A stretch of 64,000 nt of DNA from Alphaproteobacteria bacterium (GTDB lineage: Bacteria; Pseudomonadota; Alphaproteobacteria; UBA2966), in contig JABIFY010000075.1 of the NCBI GenBank assembly GCA_018650465.1, forward strand, positions 62,001-126,000, given 5' to 3'. Positions within the stretch are counted from its first letter, which is position 1; every line of letters starts with the position of its first letter. Of the stretch, positions 2 to 63,867 are shown piece by piece. The position numbers were made by a program, and so were the translations under genes. The notes below the pieces were generated by a model that saw only the letters and a list, made by a program, of their open reading frames with translations, searched no databases and was not told the origin of the DNA.

Positions 2-1129
2 GACAAGGACCACTTTGGCAACACCTTCCATCGCCAGTGCAATATGTCAGCCCAGGGCATCCCGCAAATCTCCGCCGTCTTTGGTGGCTGCACGGCAGGC
101 GGGGCCTATATCCCGGCCTTGTCGGATGAAACCGTCATGGTACGCGGCAATGCCCGCATTCACCTGGGCGGACCCAGCATCGTCAAGGCCGCCATCAATG
201 AAGACATCGACGGCGAAAGCCTGGGCGGGGCCGAAATGCACACGCGCGTTTCCGGCGTGTCGGACTATCTGGCAGAGGACGAGCCGCACGCCCTGGCCAT
301 CCTGCGCGATATTATCGCCAACCTGAATTACAAACGCCGTAAGGTCGAAGACCTGAAAGGCTTTGAGTCGCCTAAATATGATCCAGCCGAGATCGCCGGG
401 GTGATCAGCAAGGATCGTAAAATTCCCTATGATGTTCGCGAGATCATCGCCCGACTGGTAGATGCCAGTGCCTTCCGTGAATTCAAGCCAGACTATGGTG
501 AAAGCATGGTTTGCGGCACGGCCCACATTCACGGCCATGCGGTTGGCATTCTCGGCAACAACGGGGCGCTGTTTTCTGAAAGCTCATTGAAGGCCGCACA
601 TTTTATTGAGCTTTGTAACCAGCGCCAAATTCCTTTGCTGTTCCTGCATAATATCACCGGTTTCATGGTCGGGCGGGATGCCGAACGCGGTGGCATTGCC
701 AAGAACAGCGCCAAGATGGTTTATGCCATGTCGACAGCACGGGTGCCGCGCTTCTCGGTGATTGTCGGCGGGTCTTACGGGGCCGGAAATTATGGCATGT
801 GCGGTCGCGGTTTCTGGCCGCACTTTCTGTTTGCCTGGCCCACAGCAGAATGCGCCACCATGAGCGCCGACATCGCCTCAAACGTCATGCTGACCCTGCG
901 CGAGGGCAGCCTGAAAGCAGGCCCCGCCACGCAAGAGGAACTGGACGGCATAGAAAAGGGTGTGCGCGATCAATATGGCGAACAAAGCGATCCTTATTAT
1001 GCCACCTCGCGATTATGGGACGACGGTATCATCGAGCCGGCTCAAACACGCGACGTTCTGGGCCTGTGTCTGGCGGTTACCATGACGACGCCGGAGCCCA
1101 CCGGTTTCTCACCTGTGTTCAGGATGTAA
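2..1129 (+). CDS. Acyl-CoA carboxylase, carboxyltransferase (beta) subunit, 5' truncated by window edge
   Basis: The frame is open from base 2, so the true start lies upstream; 375 residues of the C-terminal part are visible. The family transfers a carboxyl group from carboxybiotin to an acyl-CoA. The visible part carries the crotonase-fold motifs of methylcrotonyl/geranyl-CoA carboxylase beta subunits: a GGCTAGGAYIPAL oxyanion-type loop near the start, and later a GAGNYGMCGRGFWP segment typical of MCC-beta. It stops 4 bp before the biotin carboxylase gene and an acyl-CoA dehydrogenase follows, an arrangement like the liu (leucine) or atu (acyclic terpene) clusters. Which acyl-CoA is used (3-methylcrotonyl, geranyl or other) cannot be settled from this fragment. 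Family call secure, substrate uncertain. Confidence 0.9.
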   Translation, partial: DKDHFGNTFHRQCNMSAQGIPQISAVFGGCTAGGAYIPALSDETVMVRGNARIHLGGPSIVKAAINEDIDGESLGGAEMHTRVSGVSDYLAEDEPHALAILRDIIANLNYKRRKVEDLKGFESPKYDPAEIAGVISKDRKIPYDVREIIARLVDASAFREFKPDYGESMVCGTAHIHGHAVGILGNNGALFSESSLKAAHFIELCNQRQIPLLFLHNITGFMVGRDAERGGIAKNSAKMVYAMSTARVPRFSVIVGGSYGAGNYGMCGRGFWPHFLFAWPTAECATMSADIASNVMLTLREGSLKAGPATQEELDGIEKGVRDQYGEQSDPYYATSRLWDDGIIEPAQTRDVLGLCLAVTMTTPEPTGFSPVFRM

Positions 1130-1133
1130 GCTG

Positions 1134-3020
1134 ATGTTCAAATCAATACTTGTGGCCAATCGCGGCGAAATTGCCTGCCGCATCATGCGCACTTGCAAAC
1201 ATATGGGCATTCGCACAATTGCCGTTTATTCAGAGGCAGACCGAGATGCCTTGTTTGTACAAATGGCTGACGACGCGGTCCTGATCGGCCCGGCGGAAGC
1301 ACGCCTGAGTTATCTGAAAGCGGATGCCATCCTGAAGGCGGCCCGACAAACGGGCGCCGAGGCTGTGCATCCGGGTTACGGTTTCCTTTCTGAAAATGCT
1401 GATTTCGCGGACGCCTGCGCAAAAGCCAAAATCACATTCATCGGCCCCGACGCCAATGCGATTCGACGCATGGGTTCAAAAATCGAAGCCAAGAAAATTG
1501 CCCGTGATGCAGGGGTGCCGGTGGTGCCAGGCTATGACGGGGCAGAGCAGACGTTGGCTGTGCTGACAGCGGAAGCTGAAAAAATACCTCTGCCCCTGAT
1601 CATCAAGGCCAGTGCCGGTGGCGGTGGCCGCGGCATGCGCCGGGTCAATCTCATGAGCGACTTCGCCGAGGCCCTGAAATCTGCGCAAAAAGAAGCCCTG
1701 AGCGCCTTTGGCAGCGATGCCGTGTTGCTGGAAAAATACATCGAGCGCCCGCGGCATGTGGAAGTGCAGGTCTTGTGCGACAGCCATGGCGCGGCCCTGC
1801 ACTTGTATGAGCGTGACTGTTCAGTACAGCGCAATCATCAAAAGCTTATCGAAGAAGCCCCTGCCCCGGACCTTGATCCCGCCACCCGACAGCGCCTGAC
1901 CGACAGCGCCCTGAAGCTGGCCAAAATTATTAATTACACCTCAGCCGGGACCGTGGAATTTATTCTCGACCGCGACAGTAACGAGGTTTATTTTCTGGAG
2001 ATGAACACCCGCCTGCAAGTAGAGCATCCGGTCACCGAAATGATTACCGGCATTGATCTGGTGGAACAGCAAATCCGCGTCGCCGCCGGTGAAGCCCTTG
2101 TCTTTGATCAAGACGATATCCAGATCAACGGCTGGGCCATAGAGGCACGTGTCGCTGCCGAAGATCCGGCGCAGAATTATTTACCGCAGACCGGCATCAT
2201 CTCATATTGCCAGGAGCCGACCGGCGATAATATGCGCTGTGATAGTGGCGTGACTGCTGGCAGCACCATCAGCCCCTGGTATGATTCCATGATGGCCAAG
2301 GTTATCACCCGCGGGGACGACCGTGGCCAGGCCATCGACAATTTGTTGGGTGCGATGGATGGTTATCACCTGGCCGGCGTCGGGCATAACATGCCTTTTC
2401 TGTATGACATTGTTGACCAGCAGGCGTTCCGTGAAGCCAATATCGATACGACCTTTCTGGATCGTGTATTTCCCGATGGCTGGCAAGTGCCAGACAACAA
2501 GGCCGGAGAGATTGCAGCATCAGCCTGGCGTGGAAACCAGGCAACTTCAGCCTCACCGTGGCAAGCCCTGGGACCCTGGCGACTGACAGGTACGCCTGCC
2601 AGTTACGTTTATGTGCGCGAAAATGACGAGGAACCCGTTGAAGTTCAGATCACAAGTCCTGCCGATACGTCCTCAGCGGCAATGCTTCCTGATGGTCGGG
2701 TTCTGGTGTCATCGGGCAGTGCGCGAAATCATGTCTTCGAAGTTCTGTTGTCAGAGCAGGCCTTGCTGGACCGACAAAGTACCACGGCACATTCGGACGA
2801 ACCCGGCATTCGTGCTCCCATGCCTGGCCTGATCAGTGAAATCCGCTCAGGTCTCGGCGATACGGTCAATGCCGGTGATACCATCGTCGTGCTGGAAGCT
2901 ATGAAGCTGATGCAAAATCTGGCGGCCCCCATTAGCGGTACAATATCGGCCATTCATTGCAAGGCGGGCGAGACCGTCAACGGCAATGACCTTTTAATTG
3001 AAATTTCAAACGAAGAGTAG
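1134..3020 (+). CDS. Acyl-CoA carboxylase alpha subunit (biotin carboxylase + biotin carrier)
   Basis: This 628-residue protein carboxylates biotin with ATP and bicarbonate and presents it to the beta subunit encoded just upstream. The N-terminal biotin carboxylase domain starts KSILVANRGEIACRI; the ATP-grasp glycine loop GGGGRGM is at residues 162-168, followed by RNHQKLIEEAPAP and EMNTRLQVEHPVTE. The C-terminal biotinyl domain (about residues 555-628) contains EAMKLM, with the biotinylated lysine at about residue 591. The length is close to that of MccA/LiuD-type subunits (about 650). The 4-bp gap to the beta gene indicates translational coupling. It belongs with the following acyl-CoA dehydrogenase in one operon; methylcrotonyl-CoA or geranyl-CoA carboxylase are the two likeliest identities. 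Confidence 0.93.
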   Translation: MFKSILVANRGEIACRIMRTCKHMGIRTIAVYSEADRDALFVQMADDAVLIGPAEARLSYLKADAILKAARQTGAEAVHPGYGFLSENADFADACAKAKITFIGPDANAIRRMGSKIEAKKIARDAGVPVVPGYDGAEQTLAVLTAEAEKIPLPLIIKASAGGGGRGMRRVNLMSDFAEALKSAQKEALSAFGSDAVLLEKYIERPRHVEVQVLCDSHGAALHLYERDCSVQRNHQKLIEEAPAPDLDPATRQRLTDSALKLAKIINYTSAGTVEFILDRDSNEVYFLEMNTRLQVEHPVTEMITGIDLVEQQIRVAAGEALVFDQDDIQINGWAIEARVAAEDPAQNYLPQTGIISYCQEPTGDNMRCDSGVTAGSTISPWYDSMMAKVITRGDDRGQAIDNLLGAMDGYHLAGVGHNMPFLYDIVDQQAFREANIDTTFLDRVFPDGWQVPDNKAGEIAASAWRGNQATSASPWQALGPWRLTGTPASYVYVRENDEEPVEVQITSPADTSSAAMLPDGRVLVSSGSARNHVFEVLLSEQALLDRQSTTAHSDEPGIRAPMPGLISEIRSGLGDTVNAGDTIVVLEAMKLMQNLAAPISGTISAIHCKAGETVNGNDLLIEISNEE

Positions 3021-3024
3021 CCCC

Positions 3025-4170
3025 ATGCAAAACAGTATCTATAACTCAGAAGAATTGGTCCTGTTCCGGGATCAGCTGCGCAAATATATCGAAAGCGAAA
3101 TCGTACCGCACGGCGATGAATGGGAAAAAATCGGCAAAGTCCCGCGTGAAGTTTTCACCAAGATGGGTGAGTTGGGGTTTCTCGGCCTGCGGTATGGCGA
3201 ACAATATGGCGGCTCGGAACTGGATACAGTAGCAACCGCTGTTCTCGCGGAAGAGTTGGGCCGCTCTACCTTCAGCGGCTTTGCGATCTCTGTTCTGGTG
3301 CATACAGACATGGCCTCACCACATCTGAACAACGCCGGCAACGACGACCAGCGGGCAAAATATATGCCGGGCATCATCACCGGCGAGACCGTTACCGCCG
3401 TCGCCGTCACCGAACCGGACGCCGGTTCAGACGTGGCCGGGATCAAGACCCGTGCCATCAAAGATGGTGATGACTGGGTGTTGAATGGCAGTAAAATGTT
3501 CATCACCAATGGCGTGCACGGCGATGTCTATTTTGTTGCCGCCAAGACCGACCCCGACGTTAAAGGGTCGCGCGGCATCACCATCTTCATCGTCGAAAAA
3601 GACACACCGGGTTTCACCGTTGGTCGCGCCCTGGACAAAATGGGCTGGCGTTGTTCCGACACGGCTGAGCTGATCTTTGACAACTGCCGGGTGCCTGCGG
3701 AAAATATCCTGGGTGAAGTCAATCGCGGCTTTTATGCCATCATGCAAAACTTCCAGAACGAACGCACCGTCATCGGGGCCATGGCCATTGGCGAATCGCA
3801 AAAAGCCCTCGACCTGACGCTTGAATACGTCAAGGACCGCAAGGCCTTTGGCGCGACCCTGTGGGATAAACAGGCCATCCGCCAACGCCTCGCCATGCGC
3901 CAGGCCGAGGTCGAAGCGGGTCGCCAGTTGGTTTACCATGCCGCCTGGATGGATGCGCAAGGCCTGGACTGCGTTGTCGAGGTTTCCGCCGTCAAAGCCT
4001 ATTGTGGTGAATTGGTCAACAAAGTCATGTATGACTGCCTGCAATTCCATGGTGGCTCAGGCTATTTACGTGAGACCCCTATCGAGCGCATGACCCGCGA
4101 CGCCCGCGTCCAGTCCATCGGCGGTGGCGCCACCGAAGTCATGCTGGAAGAAATCGCCAAGCGAATTTAA
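3025..4170 (+). CDS. Acyl-CoA dehydrogenase
   Basis: A 381-residue FAD enzyme expected to oxidise an acyl-CoA to the 2,3-enoyl-CoA and pass electrons to ETF. The ATG at 3025 is chosen over a TTG at 2998 because it follows GAAGAG and sits just after the upstream stop codon; the TTG would overlap that gene. Family signatures are visible: AVTEPDAGSDVAGI (flavin/substrate loop), KMFITNGVHGDVYFV, the segment DRKAFGATLWDKQAIRQRLA, and the C-terminal QFHGGSGYLRETPIERMTRD. In liu and atu clusters an isovaleryl- or citronellyl-CoA dehydrogenase precedes the carboxylase step, which suits this neighbour. The exact substrate is inference. Confidence 0.93.
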   Translation: MQNSIYNSEELVLFRDQLRKYIESEIVPHGDEWEKIGKVPREVFTKMGELGFLGLRYGEQYGGSELDTVATAVLAEELGRSTFSGFAISVLVHTDMASPHLNNAGNDDQRAKYMPGIITGETVTAVAVTEPDAGSDVAGIKTRAIKDGDDWVLNGSKMFITNGVHGDVYFVAAKTDPDVKGSRGITIFIVEKDTPGFTVGRALDKMGWRCSDTAELIFDNCRVPAENILGEVNRGFYAIMQNFQNERTVIGAMAIGESQKALDLTLEYVKDRKAFGATLWDKQAIRQRLAMRQAEVEAGRQLVYHAAWMDAQGLDCVVEVSAVKAYCGELVNKVMYDCLQFHGGSGYLRETPIERMTRDARVQSIGGGATEVMLEEIAKRI

Positions 4171-4192
4171 GAAGGGGCATCAACCAAAACAT

Positions 4193-4282
4193 CGTCGTGC
4201 CCGTGCTCGACACGGGTATCCACGTCTTAAAGCACTGGCCCAAAAGACGAGGGTACGCGGGTCAAGCCCGCGCATGACAACG
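4193..4282. repeat. Dispersed palindromic repeat, copy R1
   Basis: A roughly 90-bp intergenic element with two hairpin arms: 4193-4228 contains CCCGTGCTCGACACGGG, and 4245-4282 contains GCGGGTCAAGCCCGC. The outer ends (CGTCGTGCC and CATGACAACG) are imperfectly complementary, so the whole can fold into one long palindrome. It resembles the copies at 11641-11737, 21265-21295 and 60961-61040. It lies directly after the acyl-CoA dehydrogenase and may also act as a transcription end. Confidence 0.75.
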
Positions 4283-4351
4283 TGAAAAAACAGTTCCCGT
4301 TTTGCGCCAAACCTCCTCGCCACGCTGCCCGGAACAGCTTATAACGATCCC

Positions 4352-5620
4352 ATGTTGCCAACTCTCTGCCGGGACTGCCTGACCCCCATCAACACGGGCG
4401 CCGACGTCTGCGCCACTTGTGGTTCAACGCGCTTTGTCCGCCATGCAGAACTGGACGAGCCGTCTTCAAACAACAGCAAACAAACTGCTCAGTCAGTCCT
4501 GTCAGCTATTTCTTCTGCCGACGAACTGCTCGCCGATATCATCAATACACCAGGCGTGGGCGTGCTGGTACACCGGGACAACAAGATCCTGTTTGCCAAC
4601 AAGACATTTACAGATATGAACCGAATGTCAGAGGAAGAAATAGAGGATGGTACCCTGTCGGCCCGGATTATCGAAACGCGCCGACTGGAAGCAGACGTTT
4701 ACTCGGCAACAACAGTTCAGGTAGCGAATGATCTAAGTGTGGAGGGTGAATTTGAAGCCATTGTGGAGAGAACTGACGGTTCCAGATACTGGGTCAAAAT
4801 AAATACCAAAAACATAACATGGCAAGGCAAACCGGCACGATTGAATATTTCCTCCAGCATTGATATGCGTATCAGAATTGAGGAAGAATTGATCGCAACG
4901 CAAGCGCAACTCAAACAAGCCAATCAGGCAAAGTCTGAATTTCTGGCCCAAATGAGCCATGAATTACGCACACCACTGAATGCCATTATTGGTTTTTCCG
5001 AACTAATGTCATCGGGTATTGGCGGTGAAGTGGCGGAAAATCATATTGAATATTTGCGTGATATCAACCAGTCGGGCTTGCATTTGTTGTCCCTGATTAT
5101 CGATGTGCTTGATTTGTCCAAAATTGAAGCGGGCAAGCTCGAGCTGTATGAGGAAAATTTCAATCTCGGCGATGAAATACGCCGGGGCCTGGTCTTCGTG
5201 CGGGAGCAGGCTCGCAATTCAAAAATCCGAATTTTCGAAGATTTCCAGGACGACTGTCCTGACATTCATGGCGACCGTCGTCTGGTTTTGCAAATAGTCG
5301 TAAACCTCCTGACGAACGCTATCAAATATAACGTTGAGGACGGCGAAATGCGCATTGATGGAGGTATCTCTGAAACTGGTTGTCCCTGGTTTTCAGTTGC
5401 CGACACCGGCGTTGGAATTGCTGAGGATGAAATCGAAAATGTGCTCAACCCTTATAGCCGCACCGGCGATCAGGATTCTACCGAGGGAACGGGCCTTGGC
5501 TTGCTACTGGTCAGCAAAATGGCTGAATTACATGACGCTGACGTTGCACTGACAAGTACCCTGGGTGTGGGGACTTCAGTCTGCGTCACTTTCCCGGCAG
5601 ATCGACTGGCGGCAAGCTAA
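4352..5620 (+). CDS. PAS-domain sensor histidine kinase with N-terminal zinc-ribbon leader shared with DinB
   Basis: A 422-residue soluble histidine kinase with no membrane segment. Residues 1-36 form a CxxC...CxxC ribbon (C6, C9, C20, C23) nearly identical to the start of the downstream DinB. A PAS domain follows (about 55-170), then a short coiled coil (175-195), the H-box MSHELRTPLN with phospho-acceptor H203, an N-box around N322, DTGVGI with D351 and the GTGLGL ATP-lid motif at 379-384. No receiver domain is fused and no response regulator gene is nearby. The kinase body looks more AT-rich than its neighbours, while bases 4361-4459 match dinB 5715-5813 at 87 of 99 positions. Captured or duplicated 5' end of dinB is the likely origin. 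Signal and partner are unknown. No strong ribosome binding site precedes the ATG. Confidence 0.9.
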   Translation: MLPTLCRDCLTPINTGADVCATCGSTRFVRHAELDEPSSNNSKQTAQSVLSAISSADELLADIINTPGVGVLVHRDNKILFANKTFTDMNRMSEEEIEDGTLSARIIETRRLEADVYSATTVQVANDLSVEGEFEAIVERTDGSRYWVKINTKNITWQGKPARLNISSSIDMRIRIEEELIATQAQLKQANQAKSEFLAQMSHELRTPLNAIIGFSELMSSGIGGEVAENHIEYLRDINQSGLHLLSLIIDVLDLSKIEAGKLELYEENFNLGDEIRRGLVFVREQARNSKIRIFEDFQDDCPDIHGDRRLVLQIVVNLLTNAIKYNVEDGEMRIDGGISETGCPWFSVADTGVGIAEDEIENVLNPYSRTGDQDSTEGTGLGLLLVSKMAELHDADVALTSTLGVGTSVCVTFPADRLAAS

Positions 5621-5630
5621 GCGCTATAAT
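5602..5630 (+). promoter_or_regulatory. Candidate sigma-70 promoter of dinB
   Basis: A perfect -10 hexamer TATAAT is at 5625-5630, with TCGACT (4 of 6 matches to TTGACA) 17 bp upstream at 5602-5607. The -35 lies inside the end of the histidine kinase gene. The LexA box begins 2 bp after the -10, so LexA would cover the transcription start. Assigned by eye. Confidence 0.6.
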
Positions 5631-5632
5631 TT

Positions 5633-5647
5633 GTTCATGAAACGTTC
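5633..5647 (+). promoter_or_regulatory. LexA box (GTTC-N7-GTTC) upstream of dinB
   Basis: The sequence GTTCATGAAACGTTC is an exact match to the direct-repeat LexA operator known from alphaproteobacteria. It lies 46 bp before the dinB start and just after the TATAAT hexamer, the position expected for SOS repression. Confidence 0.85.
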
Positions 5648-5693
5648 GCGTATTTACTCGTAATGTCAGGCCCGACGCTATAAACTTGCTTTC

Positions 5694-6878
5694 ATGTCTA
5701 CAACCCTCACCCCCACCCTCTGCCGGGACTGTCTGACCCATATCAACACCGACGCACAAATCTGCGCCACTTGTGGTTCAACGCGCCTTGTCCACCATGC
5801 AGAACTGGACGAGCTGGATATCGCCCATGTGGATTGCGATGCCTTTTATGCCTCGGTAGAAAAGCGCGATGATCCGTCTTTGCGCGACAAACCCCTGATC
5901 GTCGGCCATCCCGGCGGACGTGGTGTAGTGACAACCGCCTGTTACATCGCCCGTAAATTTGGCCCGCGCTCTGCCATGCCCATGTTCAAGGCCATGGAGA
6001 TGTGCCCCGACGCCGTCGTCGTTAAACCGAACATGGCGAAATACAAAGAAGTCAGCCAGCAAATACGTGCCATCTTCCTGGAAGCCACGCCGGTCATCGA
6101 GCCGGTCTCCATGGATGAAGCTTATCTGGATTTATCGGCAGACACCCGCGGCGATGGCCTGACCCCCGCCTGGCATCTGGCCCGCATTTCCCGACGCATC
6201 GAAACCGACGTCGGTATCTCCGTTTCCATCGGGCTTTCCTATAACCGTTTTTTGGCCAAGCTGGCCTCGGATATGGAAAAACCACGTGGCTATTCGATCA
6301 TCCCACGGGTCGGCGTGCGTGAATTCCTGGCCCCCTTGCCTGTGCGCAAGATCAATGGTGTGGGCGAGGCCACGGCCAAAAAGATGGATGCCGACGGCAT
6401 TGTCACCATTGGCGATCTACAAGCCCTGCCCGAAGCGCAACTGGTGACGCGTTACGGCAAGTTCGGCAATCGCCTGGTGCAATATGCCAAAGGCGAAGGC
6501 AGCCGCCGTATCACATCGTCGCGGGCCAGCAAAAGCATCTCGGCAGAAAACACCTTTCGCCGTGATACGTCTTCTTTCGATGTCCTGTGCGAGGCCATCG
6601 AGCCCATGTGCGAAACCGTGGCCAACCGCATGGTGCGCAGCAAACTGGCCGGCGGCACCGTTGTCGTCAAATTGAAAACCGGCGATTTTCAAACCCTGAC
6701 CCGTAACCGCAAGCTGGCCAACCCCACCCAACGCGCCGATATCCTGTACCAATCCGCCCGCCAGATGATCGAAAAAGAAGCCAACGGCCGCGCCTTCCGC
6801 CTCATCGGTGTTGGCGTTGCAGACCTCTGCTCAGCAACAGAAGCCGACCCACCCGATTTATTTGGCGGGTTAGCGTAA
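5694..6878 (+). CDS. dinB: DNA polymerase IV (Y-family translesion polymerase)
   Basis: A 394-residue error-prone polymerase that copies past damaged bases. An N-terminal ribbon (C10, C13, C24, C27), common in alphaproteobacterial DinB, precedes the catalytic core. The first metal-binding motif is IAHVDCDAFYASVE with D47; the second is SMDEAYLD with D141/E142. A thumb helix-hairpin-helix (KINGVGEATAKKM) and a little-finger domain follow. The C-terminal DPPDLFGG is a plausible beta-clamp-binding peptide. The ATG at 5694 is the one that includes the ribbon. A LexA box and a TATAAT promoter lie immediately upstream, so SOS induction is expected. The first 120 bp are duplicated at the start of the upstream histidine kinase. 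Confidence 0.96.
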   Translation: MSTTLTPTLCRDCLTHINTDAQICATCGSTRLVHHAELDELDIAHVDCDAFYASVEKRDDPSLRDKPLIVGHPGGRGVVTTACYIARKFGPRSAMPMFKAMEMCPDAVVVKPNMAKYKEVSQQIRAIFLEATPVIEPVSMDEAYLDLSADTRGDGLTPAWHLARISRRIETDVGISVSIGLSYNRFLAKLASDMEKPRGYSIIPRVGVREFLAPLPVRKINGVGEATAKKMDADGIVTIGDLQALPEAQLVTRYGKFGNRLVQYAKGEGSRRITSSRASKSISAENTFRRDTSSFDVLCEAIEPMCETVANRMVRSKLAGGTVVVKLKTGDFQTLTRNRKLANPTQRADILYQSARQMIEKEANGRAFRLIGVGVADLCSATEADPPDLFGGLA

Positions 6879-6905
6879 GCCCCCTCTTTCAGGTACGCTC
6901 CTGGA

Positions 6906-7805
6906 ATGATTTACGTATTTGGCTCTCTCAATGTCGACTTTTTTATGAATGTCGACAAATTGCCCGCCCCTGGCGAGACCGTTATTGGTGGGGATTATTT
7001 TACAGCACCTGGAGGCAAAGGGGCGAACCAGGCGGCGGCAGCTGCCAGGTCGGCCAAGTCTGGTGGTGTGGTCGCTATGTTTGGTCTGGTCGGTGATGAC
7101 GAATGGGCAGCAACGCCTCTGAACGCCTTGCAAGAATTTGGCGTTGATGTGTCAGGCGTAGGCAGGACAACCGAAGCCGGGACCGGATATGCCTCCATCA
7201 TGATTGATGCGCAGGGTGAAAATACAATTGCCGTGGCCAGTGGAGCAAATTTGAAGGCGTCAGCCAATGGTCTAAAGAATGGGGGCATCACGGAAGATGA
7301 TTTCCTGATCCTGCAGATGGAAGTCGACAGCCACGCTAACTGGCAAGCCCTGGAAATTGCCAAGTCGGCGGGTGCGACAACGATTTTAAATGTGGCTCCG
7401 GCAGCGCCGGTACCGGATACGGCCCTGGCCTTGGTGGATTACCTCGTGGTCAATGAAATTGAGGCCCGGACCGTAGCGCAGTCACTGGCAACCGATGATA
7501 TCGAGGCCATGGCCAAAGCACTAAGCCGGAAGCATAAACTAACAACAATCGTCACGCTCGGGTCCGATGGTGCCTTGGCTACGTCAGGTGATGAAATCAT
7601 TCGCGTGCCTGCCATGGCGGTCACCGCCGTCGATACCACGGGTGCAGGTGACGCCTTTATCGGCACCCTGGCGGCAGGTTTAACGGAAGGGCTGGACCTG
7701 GAAGCCGCCATGAAACGTGGCTGTATCGGGGCGGCCCTGGCCTGTACCAAACCCGGCGCTATGCCGAGCTACGCCAGTCGGCAGGAAATTCTGACCCTAA
7801 CCTGA
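6906..7805 (+). CDS. PfkB-family sugar kinase, ribokinase-like
   Basis: A 299-residue kinase expected to phosphorylate ribose or a related sugar with ATP. The N-terminal signature FGSLNVDFFMNVDKLPAPGE and the substrate loop APGGKGANQAAAAAR are ribokinase-like. The C-terminal PfkB signature VDTTGAGDAFIGTLAAGL holds the anion-hole glycines and the catalytic aspartate (GAGD). The start follows dinB by 27 bp, possibly in the same transcript. No ribose transporter or RbsD gene is present, so the sugar substrate is not fixed. The 3' end overlaps the convergent AbrB-family gene by 9 bp. Confidence 0.88.
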   Translation: MIYVFGSLNVDFFMNVDKLPAPGETVIGGDYFTAPGGKGANQAAAAARSAKSGGVVAMFGLVGDDEWAATPLNALQEFGVDVSGVGRTTEAGTGYASIMIDAQGENTIAVASGANLKASANGLKNGGITEDDFLILQMEVDSHANWQALEIAKSAGATTILNVAPAAPVPDTALALVDYLVVNEIEARTVAQSLATDDIEAMAKALSRKHKLTTIVTLGSDGALATSGDEIIRVPAMAVTAVDTTGAGDAFIGTLAAGLTEGLDLEAAMKRGCIGAALACTKPGAMPSYASRQEILTLT

Positions 7806-8843
7806 TCTTGCCGTCAGCCATTTGGCCACGATGGGCGCCAGCAAAATGATTTCGAATATTCGCACCAGATGATGCAGAGCGACAAAGCCCGGATCAACAT
7901 CCATAGCAATGGCGATCAGGCTCATTTCTGCCACACCGCCCGGCGCAAAGGCCAGCATGGTGGCAAGAAAATCGAGGCCTGTGAAATACGAGACTGCATA
8001 GGCGCACATGGCTGAAACGAAAATGATCAAAGCGACTGAACCCAGGGCATAGATCGCAATACGTCCGATCTCTGTAGGGCTAACGCGGGAAAAACGGCTG
8101 CCAATAGAGGAGCCCAACACCACCAGAGCCACATTCAACAGCCAACGTGGCGGCAAACCCTGAACAACGCCCGTCATATAAAGGGCCGCCACGGCAAACA
8201 TGGCCCCGGTCATATAGGGCGAGGGTAAACCGATACGTTTGGCGATCTGCGGACCGAGCAAGGCGGCACCGAACAACATCAGGGCTTCCTGAATATTCAG
8301 GGTCTCGGCCCCTTCCGGGCCTGTTCGCGTAGGCACAACACCGGTCACCCCGGCAATGATCAAGGGGATGGCAAAAACCAGCATCATGATGCGCAGGCTG
8401 TGTACCAGGGCAATTTTTTGTTCGTCCCCGCCTGCTTCAGTCCCCAGTATGGTCAAGGTCGTTAACCCACCGGGGGCCGAACAAAATACTGATGTCACCT
8501 GATCAAAGCCTGCCACACGGCGATAATAGACCATCACAACCAGGGTCACGACCGGCACATATAACAGAACAGCGATCAGGCTTATGGGCCAGACAGCAGC
8601 ATTATCCAAGAGGTCCGGCTGAAAGGCTGTGCCGAGATAAATTCCGATGATCGACAGCATGACTGTGCGGATATTCATGGGTACGGCAACTTTGGCTCGC
8701 ATCAAAGCGGCGATCAGGTTGGCCGTCATAGGCCCCAACATCCAGGCCAGAGGGAAATTGATGGCATTAAATATAACACCGCCCGCCAGGCCGATCAGCA
8801 AAGACAAAATTATTTGTGGCAACAGCGCCTTGAAATCGGACAC
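7797..8843 (-). CDS. AbrB-family integral membrane protein
   Basis: A 348-residue protein with about ten hydrophobic segments, arranged as two similar halves (LPLAWMLGPMTANLIAA early, and LPSPYMTGAMFAVAA in the second half). This is the architecture of the AbrB/GntP-like family often mislabelled as ammonia monooxygenase. In E. coli the founding member was named as a regulator, but the fold suggests a transporter. No substrate can be read from the sequence or the neighbours. It is divergent from the unknown gene at 8924 and convergent with the kinase gene. Confidence 0.85.
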   Translation of the reverse strand: MSDFKALLPQIILSLLIGLAGGVIFNAINFPLAWMLGPMTANLIAALMRAKVAVPMNIRTVMLSIIGIYLGTAFQPDLLDNAAVWPISLIAVLLYVPVVTLVVMVYYRRVAGFDQVTSVFCSAPGGLTTLTILGTEAGGDEQKIALVHSLRIMMLVFAIPLIIAGVTGVVPTRTGPEGAETLNIQEALMLFGAALLGPQIAKRIGLPSPYMTGAMFAVAALYMTGVVQGLPPRWLLNVALVVLGSSIGSRFSRVSPTEIGRIAIYALGSVALIIFVSAMCAYAVSYFTGLDFLATMLAFAPGGVAEMSLIAIAMDVDPGFVALHHLVRIFEIILLAPIVAKWLTARSG

Positions 8844-8923
8844 GTTTTTCCCTGTATTAGGACCTGACAGTCGGCAACGTCTGGCGACAGCAGTTTACGC
8901 GCTACGTGGTTGAGGGAAAAGGC

Positions 8924-9664
8924 ATGGAAGACAAATCAAAGGAGGCCGATACTGACAGCAAGGACGCGTCTCCTTTGGCCGACGTGTTCTTTTCCCTGCG
9001 CCAGGAATATCTGGAGGGCATCGAGACGGGCACCATCCGCAGCCTGACCGGGTTTCAACGTGGCGTGCACAAAGTGCCGGATGCCTTGAGTGATAAAAAC
9101 AGCGCCTTTGTTAATCGCCTGATGAGCGACAATGTCGAGGCTGAGCTGGAAGATTTTTACAAACGCAGCAAGAAAGCCACCCGCCTGCGCCGCCGCGATA
9201 TGCAGGTGGGGTCGGAATTTGGTGATGGTGACCTGGATACGCCGAAATTTCGCTATTCCGTGCAAACCCGCCAAAGCCCCGACAACCCGGCCCGTTATGA
9301 AATTGTGCGCAGGTTGGAGTTGAAAGTTGGTTGGCGCAGTCAGCGCGACGCCATCAATTTGATCTTTGCCGAAGACTATGAACGCCTGGTGTTTGAAACC
9401 AATGCAACTGATCTGGACTATGACGACCTGGTTGAGCGACTGGAAGATATCGAGGAAAAACACGGCGGCCATGTGGATGAAGAGCCCGGGCTTCAGCGTG
9501 TCAGCTGGGCTGCCCCCGACAAGGCCCGCCTGACGTTTGATTTGAAAGTCGGTCGTCTGGAAATGTCTTTTGGCCAACGCGGCGGCCTTGACTTGATTGA
9601 TGCGGCGCAATCTTTGAAGCCAAATCTGGGTGGCAAAGCAAGCGCCCTGTTCAAGGACGACTGA
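8924..9664 (+). CDS. Uncharacterised soluble protein, 246 residues
   Basis: I do not recognise this family. The ATG at 8924 is preferred over a GTG at 8906 because GAGGGAAAAGG lies just before it. The protein has an acidic, polar N-terminus, a basic patch (KRSKKATRLRRRD around residue 85-95), then alternating strands and acidic helices (DLVERLEDIEEK). There is no signal peptide, membrane segment, cysteine cluster or nucleotide motif. The composition suggests a folded cytosolic protein. It stands between the divergent AbrB gene and otnK, 40 bp before the latter, so co-transcription with the otnK-otnC pair is possible. The coding frame is convincing; the function is unknown. Confidence 0.75.
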   Translation: MEDKSKEADTDSKDASPLADVFFSLRQEYLEGIETGTIRSLTGFQRGVHKVPDALSDKNSAFVNRLMSDNVEAELEDFYKRSKKATRLRRRDMQVGSEFGDGDLDTPKFRYSVQTRQSPDNPARYEIVRRLELKVGWRSQRDAINLIFAEDYERLVFETNATDLDYDDLVERLEDIEEKHGGHVDEEPGLQRVSWAAPDKARLTFDLKVGRLEMSFGQRGGLDLIDAAQSLKPNLGGKASALFKDD

Positions 9665-57614: not shown

Positions 57615-60600
57615 TCAATGAAAATCACGTGACGGGAAATGCCTGGGGTCAGCCTGGGCTTTGCCGGTCTCGGGGGCTTCGTCCAGTTCGTCCAGCAAGT
57701 AACTGTAATCCCCCAGGTGCCGGGCGATGACGTGGATGACGCGGCCTTCGCGTTGCACCACGCCGGTAATGCCCAATAACCTGGATCGCAAGACGACCTT
57801 GCGGAATTTTTCGAAAACCTTGGGCCATATGATGATGTTGGCGATACCGGTTTCGTCTTCCAGGGTGGCGAAGATCACACCGCTGGCGGTGCCGGGGCGC
57901 TGGCGGGAAATGACCAGACCGGCGAGGCGCACGGCACTGTCGGGATCGACCGTGGGCAGGGCTTCGTTGCTGATGAAACCACGATGCTGGAAACGTCGAC
58001 GCAGCAGTTTTAACGGATGGGCCTTGAGGCTGAGGCGGGTGGCGGCGTAATCATCAATGACCTGCTCCCCCAGTTGGGCCAGCGGCAGGGTGACATCTGG
58101 TTCAATCTGGAAATTGCCTCCAGGCCCGGAACTTTCAGGCCTCGAATTTTGACGCTGCTTTGCTTCCCGCGCTTCGGCAGCGGCAAACAGAGGCAAGACC
58201 GTATCGCCCAGCCCCTTCACCGCCCACAAGGCATCACGGCGATTAAGCTGCATGGAAGCAAAAGCATCTGCCCGGGCCAGACGATCAAGCACCTTTGGGC
58301 CCAAGCCACTGCGATGCCAAAGATCAGAAACATCGGCATAATCCTGCCCCCGATGGGCCACGAGAGTTTGCGCATCGGCCTCCCGCAGGCCCTTGATCTG
58401 GCGCAGGCCCAGGCGCAGGGCCACACGACCACTCCCCGGCTGTTCCGGCTTGCGCCCCTTGCCACGATGGCGCACAGGCGGCTTATGAAAATCGTGAGGT
58501 TCCAGCGTACAATCCCAATTCGAATGATTAACATCCACTGGCCGCACCACGGCACCATGTTCACGGGCATCGCGCACGATCTGGGCCGGGGCATAAAACC
58601 CCATGGGTTGACTGTTCAGCAAAGCTGCTGCAAAGGCCGACGGGTAATGGCATTTCAGCCAGGCAGAGACATAAACCAACAAGGCAAAGCTGGCGGCATG
58701 GGATTCGGGGAAACCATATTCGCCAAAGCCTTCGATCTGTTTAAAACACCGCGTGGCAAATTCCTCGTCATAGCCTTTTTCAAGCATACCGCCGACAAAG
58801 CGCTCACCATAACCATGGATCTTGCCGGTCTTGCGGAAGGTGGCCATGGCCCGGCGCAGGCCATCGGCTTCGGAGGGCGTGAAGCCCGCCCCCACCACGG
58901 CGATCTTCATGGCCTGTTCCTGGAACAAGGGCACGCCCAGGGTTTTGCCCAGCACGGCCTCCAGTTCCTTTGAGGGATAGTTCACCTCTTCCTCGCCATT
59001 ACGGCGGCGCAGGTAGGGATGCACCATATCGCCCTGGATGGGACCGGGCCGCACGATGGCGACCTCAATCACCAGGTCATAGAAATTACGTGGTTTGAGG
59101 CGTGGCAGCATGGACATCTGGGCCCGGCTTTCCACCTGGAAGACACCCACAGAATCGCCCTTGCACAACATGTCATAAACGCGGGGGTCTTCGGCAGGTA
59201 CCGTCGCCAAAGTGAGGCTGCGGCCATGGTGCTTTTCGATGAAGGAGAAGGCCCGGCGAATGCAGCTGAGCATGCCCAAGGCCAGCACATCAACTTTCAG
59301 AATCCCCAGCGTGTCCAGATCATCCTTGTCCCATTCGATCACCGTGCGGTCTTCCATGGCCGCGTTGGCGATGGGCACCACTGACGACAAGGCGTTCCGG
59401 GTTATGACAAAGCCACCGGTATGCTGCGACAGATGACGCGGGAAACCACGAATTTGCGTGGCCAGATCCAGTGCCTGGGCAAGGCGCGGATCGGTGGGAT
59501 CAAGCCCGGCTTCCCGCACCCGGTCATCAAGGAATTCACCGTCTTTGCTGGAACCCCAGCCCATGCCGGAGAGAGCCGCGCCCACATCTTCCGACAACCC
59601 CAGAGCCTTGGCTATTTCACGTACCGCACTTTTGGTCCGATAGGTCACCACGGTCGCGGTCAGGGCGGCTCGCTCACGACCATATTTTTGATAGATATAC
59701 TGGATCACTTCTTCCCGGCGTTCATGTTCAAAATCTACATCGATATCCGGCGGCTCGTTGCGCTCTGCCGAGATAAAACGTTCGAACAACAAATCCACCC
59801 GGTCCGGATCAACCGCCGTAATACCAAGGCAATAACAAACCGCCGAATTGGCCGCCGAGCCCCGCCCCTGGCATAGAATACCCCGGGCCCGTGCAAAGCA
59901 GACAATGTCATGCACGGTCAAAAAATAGGGCGCGTATTTCAAATCCCCGACCAGGGTCAGTTCATGTTCGACGGCCTTGCGGATTTTGGCCGGAATGCCA
60001 TCGGGATAACGCCGCTCAGCCCCCTCCCAGGTCAGCTTCTCCAACTCGCTTTGCGGGGTTTCACCCGGCGAGATGGTTTCTTCCAGATATTCGTAGGCCA
60101 ACTCTTCCAGACTGAAATCACACAGGCCCGGCAGCTGGGCACTGCGGGCCACGGCCTCTTCGTAATTGGCAAACAGGCGGGCCATTTCGGCAGGCGATTT
60201 CAAATGCCGCTCGCCATTGCCCTGCAGGCGGAACCCGGCTTCGGCCACAATGGTATGTTCGCGAATACAGGTCAGCACATCCTGCAAAGCCCGGCGGTGC
60301 GGGTCATGGGCATGCACATCGTTGGTGGCCACCAATGGTGTGCCTGCATCGATTGCCATGATCTCGAGGCGTGCCAGGCGGGCGTCATCATCCCCACGAT
60401 AGAGATGCCGGGCCGCCAACCAGATCACCGCATCCTTATGGGCCCGACGACGCAGAGTCTTGAGGGTTTTGGCAAAGGCGGCCTCGGCTTTTGTTGTTGG
60501 CATTTCAGGTGGCACCACCACCAGCACCTGGTCGCGCCCGGCCCCGAAAACCGGCCCGAAAAGATCATCCAGATCAAACCAGCACTCGCCTTTGGGTGCC

Positions 60601-60917
60601 CGCCGGTTGCCCAATGTCAGCAATTGCGACAGTCGCCCGTACGCCGCCCGGTCACGCGGAAAGGTCAGAATATCCGGCCCGCCTTCATGTCCATAGTCCG
60701 GCACCAGCCGACAGCCCGGCACAAAGGGCAACTCACTTTGTTTCGCCGCCGCATGTCCGCGCACTACCCCCGCCAGGGTATTACGATCCGCCACCACCGC
60801 CCCGCAATGCCCCAACACCGCCGCCCGCGTCACCAGTTCCTCGGCATGGGACGCACCCCGCAAAAAGCTGAAGTTCGTCGTGGTTTCCAGTTCCATATAG
60901 GCGATGTTGTTACTCAT
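57615..60917 (-). CDS. dnaE2: Error-prone DNA polymerase III alpha (DnaE2/ImuC)
   Basis: A 1100-residue C-family polymerase for mutagenic lesion bypass. The PHP domain opens the protein (YMELETTTNFSFLRGASHAEELV). Catalytic aspartates lie in PDIDVDFEHERREEVI; the GRGSAANSAVCYCLGI loop precedes them. Near the end SAVRLAGLVISRQRPGTASGVIFATLEDETG is the OB fold. It lacks the long C-terminal part of the replicative DnaE1 (about 1160). It is the catalytic partner of ImuA and ImuB, with a GIY-YIG gene and a palindromic repeat separating it from imuB. Confidence 0.95.
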   Translation of the reverse strand: MSNNIAYMELETTTNFSFLRGASHAEELVTRAAVLGHCGAVVADRNTLAGVVRGHAAAKQSELPFVPGCRLVPDYGHEGGPDILTFPRDRAAYGRLSQLLTLGNRRAPKGECWFDLDDLFGPVFGAGRDQVLVVVPPEMPTTKAEAAFAKTLKTLRRRAHKDAVIWLAARHLYRGDDDARLARLEIMAIDAGTPLVATNDVHAHDPHRRALQDVLTCIREHTIVAEAGFRLQGNGERHLKSPAEMARLFANYEEAVARSAQLPGLCDFSLEELAYEYLEETISPGETPQSELEKLTWEGAERRYPDGIPAKIRKAVEHELTLVGDLKYAPYFLTVHDIVCFARARGILCQGRGSAANSAVCYCLGITAVDPDRVDLLFERFISAERNEPPDIDVDFEHERREEVIQYIYQKYGRERAALTATVVTYRTKSAVREIAKALGLSEDVGAALSGMGWGSSKDGEFLDDRVREAGLDPTDPRLAQALDLATQIRGFPRHLSQHTGGFVITRNALSSVVPIANAAMEDRTVIEWDKDDLDTLGILKVDVLALGMLSCIRRAFSFIEKHHGRSLTLATVPAEDPRVYDMLCKGDSVGVFQVESRAQMSMLPRLKPRNFYDLVIEVAIVRPGPIQGDMVHPYLRRRNGEEEVNYPSKELEAVLGKTLGVPLFQEQAMKIAVVGAGFTPSEADGLRRAMATFRKTGKIHGYGERFVGGMLEKGYDEEFATRCFKQIEGFGEYGFPESHAASFALLVYVSAWLKCHYPSAFAAALLNSQPMGFYAPAQIVRDAREHGAVVRPVDVNHSNWDCTLEPHDFHKPPVRHRGKGRKPEQPGSGRVALRLGLRQIKGLREADAQTLVAHRGQDYADVSDLWHRSGLGPKVLDRLARADAFASMQLNRRDALWAVKGLGDTVLPLFAAAEAREAKQRQNSRPESSGPGGNFQIEPDVTLPLAQLGEQVIDDYAATRLSLKAHPLKLLRRRFQHRGFISNEALPTVDPDSAVRLAGLVISRQRPGTASGVIFATLEDETGIANIIIWPKVFEKFRKVVLRSRLLGITGVVQREGRVIHVIARHLGDYSYLLDELDEAPETGKAQADPRHFPSRDFH

Positions 60918-60960
60918 GGTTTTTCCTTATTTTCGCGCCGTGCCTGATCCAGCCGCGTAG

Positions 60961-61040
60961 ATGCCGGATCGGGGTCCGGCATGACGGAGTGAGAAATTCG
61001 TATGCTCTCCGTCACCCCGCACTTGATGCGGGGTCCATGC
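60961..61040. repeat. Dispersed palindromic repeat, copy R4
   Basis: Two hairpin units, GCCGGATCGGGGTCCGGC (from about 60963) and CCCCGCACTTGATGCGGGG (within 61007-61040), flanked by complementary CGGAG/CTCCG. The second unit and its flank match R2 (11708-11741) at 33 of 34 bases. It lies in the gap between the GIY-YIG gene and dnaE2, that is, inside the mutasome operon. Confidence 0.85.
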
Positions 61041-61050
61041 TTCGAATACT

Positions 61051-61365
61051 TCAAACATCCGGTTGTCCATCTGGCTGGCCCAGAATGTCGCCATACAAAT
61101 CACGCCAGTTCGGGTTGAACTCTGAAATCAGCTCGGCCTTCCACGATCTTCGCCACTTCTTCAGAACCTTCTCACGGATAATGGCGTTGGCTATATCTTC
61201 AAAACATTCGTAATAAACCAGAGACTTGATGCCGTAACGGGCAGTAAATCCATCCGTTACCCGGCTCTTGTGTTGCCAGGTTCGCCTGATCAAGTCTGAC
61301 GTGACACCCACATAGAATGTGCCCTTCCGCTTGTTAGCCATAATGTAAATATAAGCCCCCCTCAT
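61051..61365 (-). CDS. Small GIY-YIG nuclease-family protein inside the imu operon
   Basis: A 104-residue single-domain protein. AYIYIMANKRKGTFYVGVTSDLIRRTWQHK carries the GIY (YIY at 5-7) and YIG (YVG at 18-20) elements, the conserved arginine (R27) and H32; IREKVLKKW has the probable metal-binding E65. Its ATG overlaps the imuB stop (ATGA, 61362-61365), so translation is coupled. The last residues (ILGQPDGQPDV) run toward the palindromic repeat R4. Such small GIY-YIG proteins are widespread in alphaproteobacteria, usually outside repair operons, and their role is unknown. Confidence 0.88.
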   Translation of the reverse strand: MRGAYIYIMANKRKGTFYVGVTSDLIRRTWQHKSRVTDGFTARYGIKSLVYYECFEDIANAIIREKVLKKWRRSWKAELISEFNPNWRDLYGDILGQPDGQPDV

Positions 61366-63059
61366 GCGAACACTCCATGCAAAAACCACCGGGGTACACG
61401 CGGCGGCGGCGGGACAGCACCGGGCATAGTGGGCAAGTCATAAAGTCCCTCACGATAGAGCCAGAAGCGATGGCCGTCGGTGTCTTCGATACGGTAATAA
61501 TCGCGGGTCAGGTGGCTGCGATCTTCGCCGGGTGGGGCGGTGTCGCGCCACCATTCCGGGGCGATGCGTTCCGGCCCTTCAGCGTGTATGACCTTGTGCA
61601 GCAAACGCCGCCAGCGAAACATCACTGGCGGACCGTCAGGCACTTCGGCCATGGCGTCGATGACTTGTGGTTGGGGAAACAGACGTAAAGGCCGGGCACC
61701 ACCAGGGGCGGCGGGCATAGGCCGTCCATCAGTGGTTTGATGATCGAGAGCCGGGGCCATATCCTGGCCATGCCGGAGATCGGCCCGGTTATCAAGGGCC
61801 GAGACGGCAAGGCCAGCCCGTTCCGGGACATGACTGGCCCGGCTTTCCAGACGCACCACACTGCCCCGCCCCAAACGCATTTCCAGGCGGTCAATCAAGG
61901 GACCCAGTTGGGCTGTTTGTTCATCTGCGGCCAGGTCATGGGACAGGTTCACCTGGGTCGCATCCATGGCTTCAACAACAGGGGCCGCGATGGTCATGAC
62001 CTCGACCCCGAAGCCAAGATCAAGTTTATCCAGACGATCTGCAAACAGGCGGGCAATGTGCGCCACATCACGCACCGGACGGCTGGTGCCAACAACCGCA
62101 CGGGCAACACCACCATCCACCCGGTAAAGTGTCAGTTCGGCCCGCCGCAGGCCAAGGCGTTCATCAGCCAGGCGCTGGCGCAAACGATCCAGCAGGCGGT
62201 GCAAACCGGCGGCCACATCATCCAGATGACCGATGGCTTCGGGGAAAGAGAGACGAACCCGGTACGGCGTGATGCTACTGCGTGGCGAGACCGGTTCGGC
62301 CACCCGGCCCAGGGCCTGGTCCAGACGCAGGGCGAGGTCTTGCCCAAAGCGGGCCACCAGAGGTGCGCGGGGCAAATCATAGAGATCGCCGATTCGGCGC
62401 AGGCCCAGACGATCCAGGCCATCCACAACGGTAGTGGCAAGGCGCAAGGCAGCCACCGGCAAAACCTTCAGGGCCAGACGATGACCGCCGGGCGTAACAA
62501 TTTCAGGTTCGCCAGGTTTTTTCGAGACACCAAATCGGGCAAGCGCCCAGGCTGCACCCGGTGTATCGGCGAGGGCCACACGGGCATGGAAGCCCTGGCG
62601 TTTGATGTTGCGCAATAAATCTTTCAGCAAGGCCCCTTCGCCGTCAAACAGATGAGCGCAGCCGGTGATATCCAGCCACACGCCAGATCCGTTGGCTGCC
62701 CCGTTGACAGACAAGCCCAGGGGTTCCGGCGATGTCCACGGCGTATAACGCCCGCACCAGTCGGCAATGCGTGAGAGGGTTTCCGCATCGCGGTGAGGGT
62801 CGGCTTCAACCGTTTCCAGGCCGGGCAACACGGCCCGGGCTGCGGCCAGAGTCAGGCCAGGTTCCAGCCCCGCCGTTGCCGCCGCCGGGTTCACCGCCGC
62901 CAGCCGGATGCCGCCATGAGATGCCATGACGACCGCCATGGGATCAGACCGCCAGGCCGGGTTCTGTCGGGTAACGCGATCGCTGGCCAGCTTCGGCAGC
63001 CACAGTGAAACGACGCGGCGCTGTCCTGATCCGGTTCCGGCTGTCGTGTAAACGTCCAT
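61362..63059 (-). CDS. imuB: ImuB, inactive Y-family polymerase-like protein
   Basis: About 565 residues from an ATG at 63059 (GTGGAG upstream); the exact start is uncertain, and it would lie 116 bp inside imuA. RRVVSLWLPKLASDRV replaces the DxDAFFAxVE metal site of active Y-polymerases, so the protein is catalytically dead as expected for ImuB. The palm/finger-like part continues with TPEPLGLSVNGAANGSGVWLDITGCAHLF. ImuB bridges DnaE2 to the beta clamp and ImuA. The stop overlaps the GIY-YIG gene by 4 bp. Confidence 0.93.
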   Translation of the reverse strand: MDVYTTAGTGSGQRRVVSLWLPKLASDRVTRQNPAWRSDPMAVVMASHGGIRLAAVNPAAATAGLEPGLTLAAARAVLPGLETVEADPHRDAETLSRIADWCGRYTPWTSPEPLGLSVNGAANGSGVWLDITGCAHLFDGEGALLKDLLRNIKRQGFHARVALADTPGAAWALARFGVSKKPGEPEIVTPGGHRLALKVLPVAALRLATTVVDGLDRLGLRRIGDLYDLPRAPLVARFGQDLALRLDQALGRVAEPVSPRSSITPYRVRLSFPEAIGHLDDVAAGLHRLLDRLRQRLADERLGLRRAELTLYRVDGGVARAVVGTSRPVRDVAHIARLFADRLDKLDLGFGVEVMTIAAPVVEAMDATQVNLSHDLAADEQTAQLGPLIDRLEMRLGRGSVVRLESRASHVPERAGLAVSALDNRADLRHGQDMAPALDHQTTDGRPMPAAPGGARPLRLFPQPQVIDAMAEVPDGPPVMFRWRRLLHKVIHAEGPERIAPEWWRDTAPPGEDRSHLTRDYYRIEDTDGHRFWLYREGLYDLPTMPGAVPPPPRVPRWFLHGVFA

Positions 63060-63795
63060 CCCGCCACTCCACCTGCCAGTCCTCGAGCTGGCTGTCTGCT
63101 GTTGCCCCGCGACAGCGCAACAGGTTGAGTTTCCATCGCATGTCATATCCCGCCGTCACATTTGTGGCAGGCGTCACCTTCCAGCGCGTCTGGGCCGCAC
63201 TCACCGCATGGCTCTGGCTGTTATGGCGTAACACCAGGGCAGGCACCCCGCGAGCTTCGGCGGCCAGTTGCAAACGACGGCTGGCGGTAAAGCTGAGATC
63301 ACTGACCTCGCCCAGCACGGCGCACAAGGCGGTGCTTTGCAGGCCTTCTTCCAGGGCCCACAGAATGTCATGATCGCGCCCGGCCCGGACCTCCAGCAAA
63401 CGTTCAGGCCCCAGACCGAAGGCAGCCAGACCCGGACCATAGAGTTCGCCATTTTCCTGGCCGTCATAATGACGCCGGCACCACAGCACCACGCCGCCCC
63501 CTGAATCAGATATGTCTTTTGCTGCCAGCCCCATCAAAGCCGCAGCAAATCCCGCAGCGGCCCCCTGGGCACCCGGTGGTCCTACAACTTCGTGCAGGGC
63601 GCCACGCGCCAGGCCGCCATCAGGCAGAATCGCATCCAGATCAGGGGTCAGGGCCAAAGGTGTCGTGCTGACAGCACCACCCAGCTTGCCCACCTTTTCA
63701 ATGGCCCCGATTTTGGCCCGCAAAGTCGCAAGGACTTGATCCTTCAGAGGCAAGTCTTCATCCACCTTCTGTATAGCCTTCACCTCAGAAGCCAT
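62944..63795 (-). CDS. imuA: ImuA, RecA-like SOS mutasome protein
   Basis: A 283-residue protein first in the mutasome operon. LTPDLDAILPDGGLARGALHEVVGPPGAQGAAAGFAAAL is the RecA-like core start, with a degenerate P-loop (GPPGAQGAAAG). GPGLAAFGLGPERLLEVRAGRDHDILWALEEGL and a basic C-terminus with HDSRNRIRTAPRRF follow. ImuA inhibits RecA filament formation in related bacteria and supports DnaE2-dependent mutagenesis. The ATG is 58 bp from a LexA box. Confidence 0.93.
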   Translation of the reverse strand: MASEVKAIQKVDEDLPLKDQVLATLRAKIGAIEKVGKLGGAVSTTPLALTPDLDAILPDGGLARGALHEVVGPPGAQGAAAGFAAALMGLAAKDISDSGGGVVLWCRRHYDGQENGELYGPGLAAFGLGPERLLEVRAGRDHDILWALEEGLQSTALCAVLGEVSDLSFTASRRLQLAAEARGVPALVLRHNSQSHAVSAAQTRWKVTPATNVTAGYDMRWKLNLLRCRGATADSQLEDWQVEWRDGRLHDSRNRIRTAPRRFTVAAEAGQRSRYPTEPGLAV

Positions 63796-63852: not shown

Positions 63853-63867
63853 GTTCTTGTTTTGTTC
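63853..63867 (-). promoter_or_regulatory. LexA box (GTTC-N7-GTTC) upstream of imuA
   Basis: On the plus strand the sequence is GTTCTTGTTTTGTTC, an exact alphaproteobacterial LexA operator. It overlaps the candidate -10 of the imuA promoter, placing the imuA-imuB-GIY-YIG-dnaE2 unit under SOS control. Confidence 0.87.

Follow-up and report, generated by a model that had tools for sequence, protein, structure and literature searches.

In the 64,000-nucleotide stretch of alphaproteobacterial DNA that we analysed (the window), a histidine kinase gene opens with a copy of the 5' end of its neighbor dinB. We consider it likely that a kinase body captured this 5' end, that the end was duplicated in the process so that dinB was left intact, and that the putative zinc ribbon it encodes is most likely a passenger on the kinase. 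At the level of sequence, four observations establish the arrangement: the kinase begins at what aligns as the ancestral dinB ATG, its body has no dinB homology, dinB has a predicted LexA box of its own, and a sister genome has the same locus free of the insert. The ribbon-kinase is thus a real, lineage-specific fusion that most likely arose by accidental rearrangement of DNA.

A dinB leader on a histidine kinase gene

Window positions 4361 to 4459 and 5715 to 5813 are identical at 87 of 99 positions without a gap, and the ungapped repeat extends over 4358 to 4460 and 5712 to 5814 (103 nt, 87%). Within it lies an exact 26-bp block (4407 to 4432, equal to 5761 to 5786) bounded by mismatches at 4406 and 4433. 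The initial annotation had reported the 87 of 99 matches and the 26-bp block, and every one of its numbers is exact. Because no further repeat of similar length was found in the 4-kb region, the leader repeat is not attributable to chance. Both reading frames carry the CxxC...CxxC pattern with which the two proteins had been said to open, at C6, C9, C20, and C23 in the kinase and at C10, C13, C24, and C27 in DinB. The repeat is in frame at both gene starts, which supports the claim of a common duplicated leader. According to the repeat and the sister-genome alignment, leader copy 1 (4352 to 4459, plus strand) holds the start codon of the ancestral dinB together with its zinc-ribbon codons and now encodes the kinase N terminus. 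Leader copy 2 (5712 to 5814, plus strand), delimited by the repeat alignment, holds the zinc-ribbon codons of dinB. At 5694 to 5720, the start of the protein with the second leader copy reads MSTTLTPTL versus MLPTL, which has the appearance of a 12-nt in-frame expansion (ACCCCCACCCTC); allowing for it, the dinB ATG at 5694 is probably the counterpart of the ancestral one.

The chimeric kinase gene (4352 to 5620, plus strand) lies next to dinB on the same strand. It is intact and encodes 422 amino acids arranged as ribbon, linker, PAS, HisKA, and HATPase_c. The HisKA (residues 193 to 261, 69 bits) and HATPase_c (residues 307 to 417, 78 bits) matches are both above the gathering score, and the H-box is SHELRTPLNAIIG, with His203 as the predicted phosphoacceptor. 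Residues 62 to 160 match Pfam PAS weakly (20.5 bits, below the gathering score of 22.6), and the best kinase profile matches, PdhS, TorS, and DivJ, all fall under their cut-offs. When compared with the PRK02794 profile of DinB, the kinase matches over only its first ~36 residues and lacks the IMS polymerase domains. No response regulator gene adjoins it.

The part of the kinase gene without dinB homology (4461 to 5620, plus strand) has a low GC3 of 0.50, which is lower than that of every one of 36 window open reading frames (0.617 +/- 0.029). The closest relative found is a paralog, 42% identical, on another contig of the source genome (C55); this paralog begins at the PAS domain and has no ribbon. 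The first methionine past the joint falls within the PAS region of the kinase, and therefore the captured leader provides the kinase start. No ortholog or donor of the kinase body was found in the class, the phylum, plasmids, or viral contigs. The C55 paralog (locus L033, G000 contig C55, 4122 to 5255, minus strand) is a stand-alone PAS-HisKA-HATPase kinase with a GC3 of 0.47. Adjoining it is a 400-amino-acid membrane protein that, by eye, resembles an ACR3-type transporter.

No other ribbon-kinase turned up in 385 genomes of the class in searches with the leader by itself, a 36-row leader profile, or the PAS-linker. Moreover, the DNA around dinB at 80 further loci held no kinase of this type (0 of 80), and no ribbon-kinase was found elsewhere in the family. 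The view that the architecture is unusual holds up, as the source genome alone has it among the genomes searched. The initial annotation had also proposed looking for further kinases that always sit beside dinB; none turned up, and kinase and dinB are not co-conserved. On its sequence, this kinase is an intact orphan chimera confined to one genome among those searched.

The putative zinc ribbon as a DinB N terminus

The dinB gene (5694 to 6878, plus strand) encodes a DNA polymerase IV of 394 amino acids assigned by profile matches. It scores 564 bits against PRK02794 (NCBIfam NF002751), above the NCBIfam cut-off of 371, with residues 6 to 390 aligned to profile positions 4 to 386. The ribbon is covered by this match, and the protein is a full PRK02794 member with its N-terminal ribbon included. 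A query consisting of the leader and the first polymerase residues found matches in 168 of 385 alphaproteobacterial genomes, and a leader-only profile of 36 rows found matches in 181 of the 385. The 36 leaders compared show little or no variation at the four ribbon cysteines, and the leader of the kinase most resembles the dinB leaders of its own genus (84% and 76%, versus at most 58% for the other leaders). Those extra or long-frame leader matches that were opened (G273, G375, G212, G289, and G188) are DinB genes. One genome (G375, contig C46, L128) has a second dinB copy at 331 to 576 on the minus strand that is apparently truncated, with an open frame of ~114 residues.

The PRK02794 coverage and the class-wide occurrence together indicate that the ribbon belongs to DinB and that the kinase holds a copy. 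As judged from these profile and leader comparisons, the CxxC-CxxC ribbon is the ordinary N terminus of alphaproteobacterial DinB and not a novelty shared by the two proteins. Nor is it common in unrelated proteins of the source genome, a finding that the initial annotation would have taken against its reading; a ribbon search there gave two matches only, the kinase and dinB copies. Among the solved polymerases that were matched, none aligns ahead of query residue 34, which leaves the ribbon uncovered, and no solved Pol IV structure that was found includes it. A literature search for a DinB zinc ribbon gave no paper on such a module. This widespread N-terminal ribbon of alphaproteobacterial Pol IV is apparently uncharacterised.

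We call the module a putative zinc ribbon on the basis of its two-CxxC pattern and the high-confidence short strands in structure models of both proteins. In the DinB model, it is a confident small beta module. In the kinase model, the ribbon residues have pLDDT values of 92 to 97 and the same strand pattern as in DinB; the body of that model is unusable (mean pLDDT of 53, with no homologue rows for the body), and only the ribbon was interpreted. Judging from the models, the ribbon is probably able to fold when attached to the kinase.

Synteny and predicted SOS control

The same-genus comparison is with one genome, G001 (MAG SI054_bin61, contig JABILA010000075.1), in which the gene order is carboxylase, ACAD, dinB, and ribokinase, with no kinase. 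Window positions 2 to 4458 and 5712 to 9351 align to G001 in two collinear blocks, whose overlap is confined to the ribbon codons. The first block runs unbroken through ACAD into dinB, the alignment breaks exactly at both ribbon copies, and the segment from 4461 to 5711 is an extra piece relative to G001. It follows from this two-block alignment that the kinase ATG (4352) and the sequence upstream of it are the original dinB start; by alignment, the kinase sits on the original upstream region and ATG of dinB. Disruption of the kinase gene in all close relatives had been named as evidence against the initial reading. In G001, the one close relative compared, the gene is absent and not disrupted.

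The alphaproteobacterial LexA box is GTTC-N7-GTTC (PMC3323433, PMC8565304). This motif occurs close upstream of dinB and not of the kinase. The intact box of dinB, GTTCATGAAACGTTC (5633 to 5647, plus strand), lies 61 bp before its ATG. The box before the kinase, GTTCCCGTTTTGCGC (4293 to 4307, plus strand), lies 59 bp before the ATG and is degenerate, with its second half-site lost. Collinear with this degenerate box, G001 has an intact one, GTTCATGTTTTGTTC, 59 bp before dinB. An intact motif is also found upstream of 36 of the 80 dinB loci, mostly within about 20 to 75 bp, and lexA carries the box in both the source genome and G001. As an internal control, imuA has an intact box, GTTCTTGTTTTGTTC, at 63853 to 63867, 58 bp before the gene. 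The imuA-imuB-dnaE2 SOS mutagenesis cassette itself occupies 57615 to 63795 on the minus strand, ~57 kb from dinB. Over the 64 kb, the box occurs at chance level (2 found, 1.65 expected), and therefore its weight rests on position and conservation.

A candidate sigma-70-like promoter, TCGACT-17-TATAAT (5602 to 5630, plus strand; a consensus match only), lies in the 3' end of the kinase gene just before the dinB LexA box. Beyond the box, promoter-region homology is weak (z of 2.3 for dinB versus G001 and of 1.8 for dinB versus the kinase), and the dinB promoter region is less similar to that of G001 than the kinase's is. Because the box before the kinase is degenerate and that of dinB is intact, predicted SOS control appears to have been kept by dinB and lost by the kinase.

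Origin of the fusion and its relation to known systems

Capture of the 5' end of dinB, which the initial annotation had offered as a fallback, fits the synteny with G001. In such a capture, a kinase body would have been fused in frame to the first ~36 dinB codons at the original dinB locus. A second dinB 5' end downstream, consisting of at least the ribbon codons and probably the SOS promoter too, would have allowed dinB to stay intact. We infer that a recombination event or a partial duplication at dinB imported a low-GC kinase body, presumably related to the stand-alone PAS kinase of the source genome. The captured 5' end would give this body its missing start codon and translation start, and the kinase would have gained expression signals from dinB with the ribbon carried along. 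The operator before the kinase would then have decayed while dinB retained SOS control. On the kinase, the ribbon most likely forms a separately folding knob at the N terminus, where it is most likely a passenger or has at most a tuning effect on stability or PAS input.

The leaders bear on when this took place. Over 93 nt, the kinase and dinB copies differ at 11 sites, the kinase and G001 dinB copies at 11, and the two dinB copies at 12, and the site patterns (6/6/5) form a star. From this three-way equidistance, the duplication dates to about the time of the species split or, if the copies have changed faster, to a later time. The initial annotation had called the copy recent because synonymous sites are conserved; in fact, the copies are as distant from each other as from the dinB of the sister species, and a recent origin is not supported. 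The order of events could have been one in which G001 carried the kinase and then lost it when the 103-bp repeats recombined. A ribbon-kinase older than the species split would differ from our preferred account in timing only. It agrees with the equidistance (11/11/12 of 93), and direct repeats 1,354 bp apart permit clean excision. We nonetheless find it doubtful, if credible, as six sites common to both window copies versus G001 suggest common ancestry after the split, or conversion, and the family is otherwise without a ribbon-kinase.

The leaders also bear on the source. The copies differ more in their 5' half (10 of 46) than in their 3' half (2 of 53; Fisher P of 0.011 at a breakpoint picked post hoc). 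This skew, the low GC3 of the kinase body, and a dinB promoter region less sister-like than that of the kinase would be consistent with a block from a diverged strain, containing the kinase and an SOS-promoter dinB, that entered the resident dinB by recombination in the leader. However, a leader mosaic was rejected, since a permutation-corrected breakpoint scan was not significant (P of 0.086). In addition, the donor arrangement was not found at the 80 dinB loci or in the kinase-body donor search, and the joint at 4460/4461 would still require illegitimate recombination. We regard this variant of the capture as unlikely.

The initial annotation had also raised the idea that both ribbons dock on one partner, linking signalling to lesion bypass. 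Both ribbons would then be functional, and the partner could be, for example, a replisome or clamp-associated protein. The kinase retains all four cysteines and the LCRDCL and CATCGS cores, its ribbon is modelled with high confidence, and it adjoins dinB on the same strand. Even so, no second example was found in the 385 class genomes or at the 80 dinB loci, and G001 has no kinase. The kinase copy has only about five changes of its own, most of them residue altering, and its cysteine retention is therefore near chance expectation. With the kinase LexA box broken, co-induction with DinB is not predicted. Although all four cysteines are kept, too few changes have accumulated for this to be informative, making it weak evidence either way for a functional or a passenger ribbon. 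With a ribbon native to the DinB of the class, no other ribbon-kinase found, no co-conservation, and a kinase box degenerate where that of dinB is intact, a shared partner is not supported; the ribbon is probably not a shared docking tag, and we hold the docking of two functional ribbons to be improbable. Slightly more remote is the specific case of a DinB ribbon that truly serves as an interaction module and is used by the kinase to reach, or compete at, the partner of DinB. A signal sensed by PAS would then, if this is true, act via the ribbon on the machinery of lesion bypass.

Two further accounts are very improbable. Direct repeats flank the insert, as they would after insertion of a transposon or mobile element with an unusually long target-site duplication, but the 1.25-kb insert has neither terminal inverted repeats nor a transposase or integrase gene and had no match among viral contigs or plasmids. 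Two loci might also have been joined in error, as the sequence comes from a draft assembly in 163 contigs, but the repeat copies (87% identical, longest exact match of 26 bp) offer too little to collapse in assembly, the flanks on both sides are collinear with G001, and the joint is in frame in an intact kinase.

Taken together, these results favor capture of the dinB 5' end and would offer a snapshot of gene birth, in which a kinase body takes over the promoter region, the start codon, and the N-terminal domain of its neighbor, and the donor dinB retains a working copy and its SOS operator. They also point to a widespread and apparently uncharacterised putative zinc ribbon fronting the Pol IV of Alphaproteobacteria, the function of which lends itself to direct testing.

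Among known systems, dinB is a full member of the PRK02794/NF002751 Pol IV family with its ribbon, and the kinase leader copies that N terminus; in the kinase, however, the ribbon is cut after ~36 codons and set before a PAS-HisKA-HATPase body. With soluble PAS-HisKA-HATPase_c kinases, the protein shares an intact H-box and ATPase domain, a PAS-like input, and a paralog at 42% identity, whereas it differs in its added DinB ribbon, its want of a paired response regulator, and the failure to find an ortholog. The dinB, imuA, and lexA genes of this lineage carry the box of the alphaproteobacterial SOS regulon (PMC3323433, PMC8565304), whereas that of the kinase is degenerate even though it stands at the original promoter site of dinB. 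Domain shuffling of the input domains of two-component kinases is a known process (e.g., PMC4603909), and the gain of a new N-terminal module in one lineage resembles it. Here, however, the donor is the adjacent gene, and the captured piece includes a promoter region and a start codon. The ribbon-kinase is therefore a small new variant of known kinase-input shuffling.
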